NCBI RefSeq assembly: GCF_024198255.1
Contig: NZ_JAJVKW010000022.1
Location: forward strand, 62,001-126,000
Source: Myxococcus guangdongensis
GTDB lineage: Bacteria > Myxococcota > Myxococcia > Myxococcales > Myxococcaceae
Direction of reading: 5' to 3'
DNA: 64,000 nt
The position numbers were made by a program, and so were the translations under genes. Below, one piece after another: positions 3,081-6,244 of the stretch; position 1 is the first letter of the stretch; every line of letters starts with the position of its first letter. The notes beneath the pieces are model-generated. The model was given only the letters and a program-made list of their open reading frames with translations, did no database searches and had not been told where the DNA came from.

Positions 3081-3919
3081 TGTCACTGCCCAAGTCCCTC
3101 GTCGCCGCGCTCGTGTGCGCCCTGGCCTCGCCCCTGGCCGGGTGCATCTCCTACAACGACTCGTGCCAGCCGCTCGTCGCGGACCCCGACGCCGTCGTCG
3201 GCTACCTGGGCCAGGACGTGCTGCTCGACAAGCCCTTCGTCTGGCACGACAACAACGCGCTGGCGCAGGCCGCGGCGGATGCGTTCCGCCACGCGGAGGA
3301 TGGCTCGGCCCGTCCCGCGGTGCTGGGCGTCATCAACGGCGGCTCCCTGCGCGCGGAGGGCCTGTGCTTCACGCGCCAGGCGCTGCGCAAGGGGCCGCTC
3401 ACCGACGGCGTGCTCCACGAGGTCATCCTCTTCGAGAACCTCGTGGTCTCCGTGGACCTCACCGAGAAGGAGCTGGTGAGGATGATGGAGAACAGCGTGG
3501 GCAGCCTCTACCGGGAAGGGGAGCTCATCGCGTCACCGTCCGGCGCGTTCCTTCACCTGTCCGAGGGCACGACGATGCACGTCAACTGCGCGAGCCCGCG
3601 CGGCCAGCGCGTGGAGGCGCTGACGGTGAACGGCCAGCCCGTGCCCCTGCCGCCGCGTGACGACGAGAGCATCCGCTACCGCGTGGCCATGCCCAGCTTC
3701 CTGCTCGGAGGCGGCGACGGTTACGGGGAGGCGTTCGGCAACGCGGGCCAGAACCCGGACCGCTTCCCGGTGCAGGCGCGGAAGCTGGGAGGGACGGACG
3801 CGAACATCACCTCGGCGTACCTGCGGGAGAGGCATCCCTCACCCGAGCAGTCGCTCACCGAGAAGCCGCGAATCACGTTCTCGAACTGCGCACGACCCGC
3901 GCGGCCCGCCGGAGGTTGA
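3080..3919 (+). CDS. Lipoprotein resembling the 5'-nucleotidase C-terminal domain
   Basis: Predicted lipoprotein of 279 residues. The signal peptide ends in a lipobox (SPLAGC, Cys near residue 20). The body matches the 5'-nucleotidase C-terminal (substrate-binding) domain: INGGSLRA near residue 90, then a segment ending in FENLVVSVDLTEKELVRMME, and a late GGGDGY motif. The N-terminal metallophosphoesterase domain that carries the metal ligands in UshA-type enzymes is absent, so nucleotidase activity is unlikely. A ligand-binding role on the outer membrane or in the periplasm is an inference. The ATG overlaps the TGA of the TonB receptor gene by one base, so this may be the receptor's surface partner. 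The 5'-nucleotidase relationship rests on motif recognition only. Confidence 0.8.
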   Translation: MSLPKSLVAALVCALASPLAGCISYNDSCQPLVADPDAVVGYLGQDVLLDKPFVWHDNNALAQAAADAFRHAEDGSARPAVLGVINGGSLRAEGLCFTRQALRKGPLTDGVLHEVILFENLVVSVDLTEKELVRMMENSVGSLYREGELIASPSGAFLHLSEGTTMHVNCASPRGQRVEALTVNGQPVPLPPRDDESIRYRVAMPSFLLGGGDGYGEAFGNAGQNPDRFPVQARKLGGTDANITSAYLRERHPSPEQSLTEKPRITFSNCARPARPAGG

Positions 3920-3944
3920 TTGCCGGGGGCCGTTCGCGGGGCCT

Positions 3945-4223
3945 TCAGGACTTCGGCTCGTCCGAGCTCGGAGCCGCCGCCACCAGCGGGGTGGTGGCCG
4001 CGGGCGTCGCCGCTGGGCTCGCCGCGACGGCGGCGGGACGAGGAGGCGCGCTCAGCACGTCGTTGACCGACGGCATCCGCCGAATCTCGGCGCGCGCCAC
4101 CTTCCACGCCTGCTGGACGATCCACGACAGCGAACGGTCCTGCCGCGTGGCCTCACGCTGGATTTCCTCCAGCATGTCTTCGGGGAAATAGAGGCTTTGC
4201 TTGCGATGGTCGGTGGTGGCCAT
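3945..4223 (-). CDS. Small ribbon-helix-helix-like protein with Ala/Pro-rich tail
   Basis: Protein of 92 residues. The N-terminal 50 residues have the pattern of a ribbon-helix-helix DNA-binding fold: a short strand (RKQSLYFP), helix 1 (EDMLEEIQREATRQD) and helix 2 (SLSWIVQQAWKVAR). A disordered Ala/Pro/Thr-rich tail of about 35 residues follows. The ATG is preceded by GAGGAG about 10 bases upstream. It lies 7 bp downstream of a second copy of the same domain and is probably co-transcribed with it. Such proteins usually dimerise and bind DNA through the strand, but the target is unknown. I recall a myxobacterial small-protein family of this type (TIGR04563) but cannot verify membership here. 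Confidence 0.8.
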   Translation of the reverse strand: MATTDHRKQSLYFPEDMLEEIQREATRQDRSLSWIVQQAWKVARAEIRRMPSVNDVLSAPPRPAAVAASPAATPAATTPLVAAAPSSDEPKS

Positions 4224-4230
4224 GCCTGCG

Positions 4231-4428
4231 CTACTCCTCGCGCGGGTCCGGGTCGCCCGTCACATCGTTGACGGCGGGGAACGACTTGATGCGGTCGCGG
4301 GCGATCTTCCACGCCTGCTGGACGACCCAGGAGAGAGAGCGGTCCTGTCGGGTTGCTTCCTCCTGAATCTCCTTCAGCATCTCCTCGGGGAAGTACAGCG
4401 ACTGCTTGCGCTTGTCGGTGCCTGCCAT
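4231..4428 (-). CDS. Small ribbon-helix-helix-like protein
   Basis: Protein of 65 residues starting MAGTDKRKQSLYFPEEM. The ATG at 4428 is chosen over an upstream in-frame ATG (4470) because GGAG sits about 8 bases before it and its N-terminus then matches the neighbour. It shares the RHH-like core with the downstream gene (RKQSLYFPE, EATRQDRSLSW, VQQAW) and lacks that gene's Ala/Pro tail. It is the first gene of a two-gene unit with a 7 bp gap. Two related RHH proteins side by side suggest a tandem duplication, possibly with heterodimers. No toxin gene is adjacent, so an antitoxin role is not supported. Confidence 0.8.
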   Translation of the reverse strand: MAGTDKRKQSLYFPEEMLKEIQEEATRQDRSLSWVVQQAWKIARDRIKSFPAVNDVTGDPDPREE

Positions 4429-4589
4429 ACTTGAGTCTCCGGGGCGGATTCGAGGTGACGACCTGAACACACCGGTGCCGTTATCCGACAGACGCCCAAG
4501 AGGGTCAACGGTTTAGGTCGACTCATTCCGCGCCCGTCGGCTCCCTGTTCGGGCACGTTCAGTGCCGCCTGACGTATCCAGCCGGACGC

Positions 4590-4797
4590 GAAAAAGGAAA
4601 CGCCCCGGTCCTCGCGATGGGAGGACCGGGGCGTTTCGGAAAGAGGGACCGCCGGGAGTGGATCTCCCAGCGGTCCCGTGGACCCAGAGGGGGAGGGGGG
4701 GGACCCCTAGGTCCAACACCTTGAAAAGTCGACCGTCCCCTCAACAACGTCCGGTGGCGCGCATATTTCCGCTTCCGCGACCGCGCCCATCCGGTGT
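4590..4797 (-). ncRNA. Candidate small RNA divergent from tilS
   Basis: No protein gene explains this stretch. On the minus strand a sigma-70 type promoter (4802-4830) predicts a start near 4795, and a strong intrinsic terminator at 4597-4637 followed by CTTTTT gives a transcript of about 205 nt. Four helices are visible. A 5' hairpin spans 4751-4794 (GGCGCG pairs with CGCGCC, with outer CCGG pairs). A short hairpin lies at 4701-4714 (GGACC/GGTCC). A third spans 4645-4677 (14 bp with one mismatch), and the terminator has a perfect 17 bp stem. A C-rich tract (about 4687-4702, read as C on the RNA) lies unpaired between hairpins and could contact G-rich ribosome-binding sites. The structures are seen directly; expression and function are inferred. 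Confidence 0.55.
4597..4637 (-). terminator. Intrinsic terminator of the candidate small RNA
   Basis: Perfect 17 bp inverted repeat (GAAACGCCCCGGTCCTC and its complement) with a 7-base loop. On the minus strand it is followed directly by CTTTTT; on the plus strand no T-run follows. The orientation therefore fits a minus-strand transcript. Confidence 0.7.
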
Positions 4798-4801
4798 GAC
4801 G

Positions 4802-4830
4802 ATCATAAGAACCGACCCCCCTGCCTTCAA
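4802..4830 (-). promoter_or_regulatory. Promoter of the candidate small RNA
   Basis: Minus-strand -35 TTGAAG (4825-4830), 17 bp spacer, -10 TATGAT (4802-4807). This is one of the best sigma-70 matches in the window. It points away from tilS with no ORF downstream. Confidence 0.55.
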
Positions 4831-4882
4831 CCGCGCGCGCCTCTGTAACCCTGTTACCCGACATTCCATTCCGCCCCCGCAG

Positions 4883-6244
4883 ATGTCTCCCACCGGACCC
4901 GCGACGCAGTTGCTGAAGAGGACACTGATGGACACGTATGCGCGCCTCGGACTGGAGGGCCGGTCCGTGCTGTGCGCCGTGTCCGGAGGCGCGGATTCGG
5001 TGGCCCTGCTCGTGGGCACGGCGAGCGTGCGCGAGCGGCTGCGGCTTCGAGTGGAGGTCTGTACGGTGGACCATGGCGTGCGTCCCGAATCCCGAGCGGA
5101 GGCCCTGGCCGTGGGCTCGCTCTGCGAGCAGCTGGGCGTGCCCTGCCACGTGCGATTCCTGGCCTTGCCTCAGGGCCCGGGACTCGAGGCCCGCGCACGG
5201 CAGGCGCGCTACGAGGCCCTGGAGGCGGTGCGGCGGGAGCGGGGCCTGTCGGCGGTGGCGACAGCCCACTCGGCGAGCGACCAGGCGGAGACGCTGCTGA
5301 TGCGGCTGGCGCGGGGCGCGTCGACGCGGGGCGCGGTGGGCATCCATGAGGCGCGAGGCTCGCTGGTGCGGCCGGTGCTCGCGTTGACGCGGACGGAGCT
5401 GGTGGCGAGCCTCAAGGAGCAGGGCGTCGGATATGCGACAGACGCGATGAATGATGACCCGGCGTTCCTGCGGGTCCGGGTGCGACAAGACGCGCTGCCG
5501 GCCCTGTCGCGCGCGGCGGGCTTCCAGGTGGACGCTAGGCTGGCGTCGTACGCGCGGCTGGCGGCCGAGGACGACGCGCTGCTGAGCGACCTGGCGGACG
5601 CGGCGTGGGCGCGCGTGCGACTTGAGGAGGGGGCGCTGGACGCGGTGGCGGTGCGAGCGCTGGAGGTGCCCCTGCGGCGCAGGGTGCTCGAGAGGCTGCT
5701 GGCCGGGCACGACGTGGTGGCGGACGCGGCGATGGTGGAGCGCGCGATGCGGGCGGTGGAGCAGGGCGGCTCGGCGACGGTGGGGCGTGGGTTGCGGCTC
5801 CGGGCCACGGGCGGGCGGGTGCGCTGCGTGGCGTCCTCGGAGGTGAAGGCGCCTCTGGTGCGGGCCATGGTGCTGACGGGGGAGGGGGCCGGGGGCGTGC
5901 TGGAGGGCACGGGGTGGCATTTCCGCGTCGAGCCGCGCGAGCCGCCTCCGGGCATGCACGGGTTGGCGTTGGCGCGCGATGTCCTCTGGCCGCTGACCGT
6001 GCGGACGCGCAGGCCCGGAGACCGGGTGCGCGCGGGCGCGAAACAACGCCGGCTGCAGGATGTGTTGGTGGATCTTCGGGTGCCCGCGGAGTCGAGGGAT
6101 TCGCGGCCGGTGGTGCTGGATGCCGAGGGCACCGTGGTGTGGCTCCCAGGGCTGTGGACACCCCCGTCACGGGCGGAGGTTTCCGGACACTACCTGTGGG
6201 CCGCACCCGTGGGTCCGAGCAATCACCAGGACCCTTCGTTATAG
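4883..6244 (+). CDS. tilS: tRNA(Ile)-lysidine synthase TilS
   Basis: Modifies cytidine-34 of the tRNA-Ile that reads AUA, using ATP and lysine; the enzyme is cytosolic and usually essential. The protein has 453 residues, a normal length. The PP-loop ATP motif SGGADS is at residues 34-39. It is followed by the family signatures VDHGVRPES and ATAHSASDQAETLLMRLARG, and the C-terminal domain has the TilS-like RRPGDRVR segment. The ATG at 4883 places the usual helical lead-in (LLKRTLMDTY) before the P-loop but has no clear Shine-Dalgarno. An ATG at 4928 with GAGGA upstream is an alternative. The gene opens the housekeeping run and is divergent from the candidate small RNA. Confidence 0.93.
   Translation: MSPTGPATQLLKRTLMDTYARLGLEGRSVLCAVSGGADSVALLVGTASVRERLRLRVEVCTVDHGVRPESRAEALAVGSLCEQLGVPCHVRFLALPQGPGLEARARQARYEALEAVRRERGLSAVATAHSASDQAETLLMRLARGASTRGAVGIHEARGSLVRPVLALTRTELVASLKEQGVGYATDAMNDDPAFLRVRVRQDALPALSRAAGFQVDARLASYARLAAEDDALLSDLADAAWARVRLEEGALDAVAVRALEVPLRRRVLERLLAGHDVVADAAMVERAMRAVEQGGSATVGRGLRLRATGGRVRCVASSEVKAPLVRAMVLTGEGAGGVLEGTGWHFRVEPREPPPGMHGLALARDVLWPLTVRTRRPGDRVRAGAKQRRLQDVLVDLRVPAESRDSRPVVLDAEGTVVWLPGLWTPPSRAEVSGHYLWAAPVGPSNHQDPSL

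Follow-up and report, generated by a model that had tools for sequence, protein, structure and literature searches.

A conserved RNA gene with a C-rich hairpin next to tilS in Myxococcia and its probable role as a trans-acting regulator

The window analyzed here is a stretch of 64,000 nucleotides from the genome of Myxococcus guangdongensis. In the region upstream of tilS, which encodes tRNA lysidine(34) synthetase, the minus strand carries two promoter motifs followed by three hairpins, the last of which is an intrinsic terminator, and, further downstream, two tandem genes of the TIGR04563 family. The individual features, given in window coordinates, are as follows:

4928..6244, plus strand: tilS (tRNA lysidine(34) synthetase), divergent neighbour
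4802..4830, minus strand: P1, sigma-70-like promoter TTGAAG-N17-TATGAT (pattern match)
4746..4770, minus strand: P2, ECF-like promoter element GGAAATA...GTT (GGAAA-N17-GTT; motif counts)
4795-4591, minus strand: predicted longer transcript from P1, about 205 nt (start placed by promoter spacing)
4591..4738, minus strand: short transcript of about 148 nt predicted for P2 (start likewise placed by promoter spacing)
4679..4715, minus strand: SL1, C-rich hairpin with 12 bp stem (fold and covariation)
4703-4691, minus strand: loop of SL1, UCCCCCCCCUCCC, C-rich
4645..4677, minus strand: SL2, hairpin (fold; compensatory changes)
4591..4637, minus strand: SL3, intrinsic terminator with 17 bp stem (4637-4597), then CTTTTT (pattern match; compensatory changes)
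4231..4428, minus strand: TIGR04563 family gene, downstream and on the same strand as the RNA
3945..4223, minus strand: second TIGR04563 family gene

Folding of the 206-nt minus strand gives three strong hairpins at its 3' side and an energy of -117.1 kcal/mol, compared to -90.8 kcal/mol for shuffled sequences (z -5.6), in agreement with the hairpins that the original prediction had assigned to this strand. The C-rich tract mentioned there is located in the SL1 loop, and the 17 bp terminator stem followed by CTTTTT is the sole terminator match of its type between positions 3500 and 6000, although this count alone is not exceptional (0.9 in shuffles). The same prediction had described the stretch as free of open reading frames, which had to be corrected, as mechanical ORFs traverse the sRNA region on both strands in the ORF listing. 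A coding function was rejected on other grounds: the C-run preceding the central U of the loop comprises 8, 7, 6 or fewer bases, depending on the lineage, and these single-base differences among relatives break every frame. Hence, the region is not coding, and a conserved ORF, the finding named at the outset as speaking against an RNA, is excluded.

Covariation in the SL1 stem was assessed using an alignment of 40 distinct sequences with 12 stem pairs, corresponding to 480 cells, of which 99.2% are paired. As this alignment was fitted to the covariance model, its pairing figures are somewhat favoured; an earlier ungapped alignment, which does not carry this bias, gave 99.5%. Double-sided compensatory changes are observed in 6 of the 12 pairs, with 32 double-change cells versus 7.0 in shuffles, and the covariation score reaches 0.346, compared to 0.180 in shuffled and at most 0.126 in slid controls, so that covariation among relatives, the proposed means of checking the prediction, is indeed found. 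Additionally, SL2 and SL3 of the home family exhibit compensatory changes, with 18 of 42 pairs in all. The stem holds 79 G-U cells versus 2 A-C cells, which identifies the minus strand as the RNA, as originally claimed; the complement of the SL1 strand would pair at only 83%. These data also bear on the explanation that the region is a DNA element or a divergent control region of tilS, in which a plus-strand G-rich tract acts, e.g. as quadruplex or protein site, and no RNA is made. Such an element would fit the presence of a G-rich tract on the plus strand and the fixed place beside tilS in all loci. Promoter and terminator motifs, however, share one strand, and the stem pairs change in a compensatory manner, including G-U pairs that are sensible only in a minus-strand RNA; by this G-U bias the DNA element is largely refuted and hardly credible any longer. 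Judged from the sequence comparisons, there is hardly a doubt that the locus is an RNA gene.

By BLASTN, the whole 300-nt region was detected in every further genome of the genus that was searched, with 81-97% identity, while in other families of the order only the first hairpin was matched. Allowing up to 3 mismatches, a 26-nt core was found in 91 of the 145 genomes from the order, in a single copy each, and the reversed control had zero matches. With a covariance model built from the 47-nt hairpin, 125 of the 147 class genomes gave a match, as did 107 of the 116 of good quality among them. Named records with the hairpin include members of Myxococcus, Pyxidicoccus, Corallococcus, Archangium, Hyalangium, Citreicoccus and Anaeromyxobacter. 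Apart from a tandem pair in one genome, each carries one copy of the hairpin. At E 0.001, none of the 48 genomes sampled from the rest of the phylum had the hairpin, in a search with strict filters which very diverged forms could escape.

Several single records deserve mention. In a genome of another family (L111, 3001-3143), the C-rich hairpin is present in two tandem copies separated by 98 nt, and each of them has a terminator-like hairpin of its own behind it. Record BNCN01000007.1, titled Comamonas sp. KCTC 72670, bears the Myxococcus tilS-sRNA locus, and its title is probably wrong. Exact-pattern matches in two archaeal MAGs (L208 and L224) were rejected, as they look like chance, display weak model scores and are devoid of tilS, ftsH or TIGR04563 neighbours.

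The architecture of the RNA varies among families. In most families beyond the home family, an RNA of about 90-110 nt with two hairpins is predicted: SL1 comes first, then ACGG and, immediately behind it, the terminator hairpin. In these families, the counterpart of SL2 is the terminator itself with a T-run directly 3' of it. In most members of the home family, what comes after SL2 is just CUCUUUCC, which looks like an eroded T-run, and termination is assigned to a third hairpin. A terminator hairpin is present in every family, but its sequence bears no relation from one family to the next, in contrast to the almost unchanging SL1; this comparison suggests that SL1 is the functional part of the RNA. 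Throughout the class, the loop and upper stem of SL1 show next to no variation, with the loop CCCUCCCC being common to the relatives compared.

Of the two promoters, P1 is the sole sigma-70-type match in 3500-6000 and clearly above chance (0.1 in shuffles). The TTGAAG-N17-TATGAT motif of the original prediction is confirmed, but its conservation is confined to part of the home family: TTGNNN-N17-TATRAT/TATGCT recurs in 10 of the 37 lineage representatives, almost all from this family, with 0.02 in shuffles. P2, which the original prediction had overlooked, is situated nearer to the hairpin and is conserved far more widely, as GGAA(T/A)-N17-19-GTT with the wider consensus GGAAT[GA]-N17-19-GTT. 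Its relaxed form GGAA[TAC]-N16-19-GTT was found in 29 of 37 representatives (shuffle mean 0.55, maximum 4/37) and the strict form GGAAT[AG] in 21 of 37 (shuffle mean 0.14), with a significance that is somewhat overstated, as the representatives are related and the motif was counted in the sequences where it was first noticed. Mostly, the motif lies 45-68 nt upstream of the hairpin. In its sequence, P2 resembles SigH/SigR-type ECF promoters; the SigH-type ECF sigma factor consensus described in Corynebacterium is GGAAT-N18-19-GTT (PMC10012870), from which the window's own GGAAA-N17-GTT is off by one base and one spacing step. Of the two promoters, P2 would be ancestral, with P1 added later, and the RNA would be under stress control via an ECF sigma factor.

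The neighbourhood of the hairpin is partly constant. All 40 of 40 loci have tilS upstream in divergent orientation, which extends the arrangement first noted in the window to each of them, and in 39 of 40 ftsH is found behind tilS, the last contig ending first. The TIGR04563 family is uncharacterised, and single or paired copies hold the downstream place in most of the class. Of the 40 loci, 35 have TIGR04563 genes downstream on the strand of the RNA, 22 of them at a distance of up to 0.8 kb, as would be expected if the RNA were a cis-acting leader or attenuator whose terminator gates transcription into these genes. In 13 loci, however, the distance amounts to 2.0-2.9 kb and in another 5 there is no TIGR04563 gene inside the stretch read, while the terminator is still kept. 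As the downstream gene is not constant, in contrast to divergent tilS, and no conserved anti-terminator pairing was seen, a cis leader is disfavoured and very improbable.

Instead, trans-acting pairing via the C-rich loop is the most likely reading and reasonably probable, based on the analogy to sX13 and NfeR1 and on the near-invariance of the loop. In sX13, C-rich loops repress mRNAs bearing G-rich motifs independently of Hfq (PMC3771888), while NfeR1 silences ntrBC via CCUCCUCCC anti-SD motifs (PMC10746234). In the SL1 loop of Pxr, a single C-to-A change abolishes function, and M. xanthus is without an hfq homolog (PMC5684412). We infer transcription, mRNA pairing and repression by the RNA: it would be transcribed from the minus strand upstream of tilS, starting at the ECF-like promoter and, in a large part of the home family, at the sigma-70-like promoter too, and would end at the intrinsic terminator. 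By analogy, SL1 would then present its near-invariant C-rich loop (UCCCCCCCCUCCC) in exposed form for pairing with G-rich ribosome-binding sites of several mRNAs, the translation of which would be blocked without Hfq.

Potential targets were sought by scanning the genome of the window and three further ones for ATGs preceded by GGGGAGGGG or GGGAGGGGG. In the four genomes, GGGAGGGGG before ATG was counted 95 times versus 44 times in the reversed control, an about twofold excess which may reflect only G-rich Shine-Dalgarno sequences. Most ATGs behind the motif do not begin convincing genes, and no orthologous target recurred between genomes among the loci read, with 10 kept per foreign genome. 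Lack of a conserved mRNA target would also be compatible with an RNA that binds a protein instead of pairing with mRNAs, the C-rich loop serving as a sponge or as a cofactor of a KH-like or cold-shock protein that binds RNA. Both the loop and the upper stem are almost invariant, more so than partial pairing demands. Contact with ribosome-binding sites that differ in sequence would tolerate a less strictly conserved loop, and a protein or a single fixed partner may be indicated. The ultraconserved C-rich motifs of NfeR1, on the other hand, act by pairing (PMC10746234), and protein binding without mRNA pairing is rather unlikely.

Taken together, computation establishes the RNA gene, its strand, its fold, its conservation and its promoter motifs. 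By its anatomy, the RNA is probably a conserved, independently transcribed, trans-acting regulatory sRNA of Myxococcia with a C-rich loop, equipped with an ECF-like promoter with or without a sigma-70-like one. More tentatively, and with considerable doubt, it may be an ECF-controlled global translational repressor (or titrator of an RNA-binding protein) that acts class-wide on many mRNAs in envelope or oxidative stress without Hfq. It is more widespread than Pxr, and its single copy, fixed place and near-unchanged loop over the class indicate that it probably does something basic. A ready covariance model as well as promoter predictions in many species are at hand from this study.

Regarding known RNA families, Rfam at gathering threshold returned only a tRNA over the window. 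Among permissive scores, the top sub-threshold one was obtained for alpha-r14 / NfeR1 (RF02344) with 41.0 bits (cut-off 58.8; E 2.3e-6 in 401 bases), besides 29.7 bits for Pxr (RF01812; cut-off 80), 26.9 bits for Atu_C7 (cut-off 45) and 26.3 bits for sX13 (RF02232; cut-off 50). As all scores fall below the cut-offs, the four were rejected as identity of the RNA. In the openly accessible literature, no RNA at a tilS-adjacent locus was found, and the myxobacterial sRNA papers found treat one well-studied sRNA, Pxr. The claim of a new small RNA finds strong support in a structure with covariation, conserved promoter motifs, terminator, class-wide single copy and the lack of an Rfam family, and the locus very probably holds an uncatalogued regulatory RNA next to tilS.

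The layout shared with Pxr, a C-rich first hairpin, then hairpins and a terminator, could, along with the score of the Pxr model on the window, indicate that the RNA belongs to the Pxr family in diverged form or is an ancient paralogue of it. True Pxr, however, is present elsewhere in the same genome (G000:C2:529459-529566, corresponding to L073 1501-1608, minus strand) with 120 bits, and with the SL1 model of this study, SL1 of Pxr scores no more than 9.6 bits, from the C-run alone. Neighbours and promoter type differ as well: Pxr has a sigma-54 promoter and lies beside pxrR/nla19 (PMC5684412), on its downstream side, whereas tilS flanks all loci examined here and the promoter motifs, in a search covering these two types, are of the sigma-70 and ECF type. 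Kinship with Pxr is hence improbable. A weak Pxr-like match of 28.4 bits, likewise below the cut-off, at G000:C1:237278-237381 (L074) may represent another C-rich sRNA or chance.

Judged by sequence comparison, the RNA appears as an independent, terminated, non-coding unit with an exposed C-rich motif, and as a likely member of the functional class of C-rich-loop trans-acting sRNAs. Like Pxr, it is myxobacterial and structured, with three hairpins, of which the first carries a C-rich loop, and no Hfq, but it occupies a separate locus and has no detectable sequence homology to Pxr. With NfeR1/alpha-r14 it has in common a hairpin with a conserved C-rich motif, which in NfeR1 is an ultraconserved, Hfq-independent anti-SD; NfeR1, however, belongs to alphaproteobacteria and carries three CCUCCUCCC motifs, compared to one C8-U-C5 tract in the new RNA, whose SL2 and SL3 loops are without the motif that would be unpaired in three hairpins. 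sX13 from Xanthomonas likewise exhibits C-rich apical loops, which pair with G-rich motifs near start codons (PMC3771888), yet three of them instead of one and in an unrelated sequence. If true, the reading as a pairing regulator would extend C-rich-loop regulation to another deep bacterial lineage without Hfq. By the sequence tests made, the RNA is a member of none of these families, while, as far as its anatomy tells, it would work like Pxr, NfeR1 and sX13.
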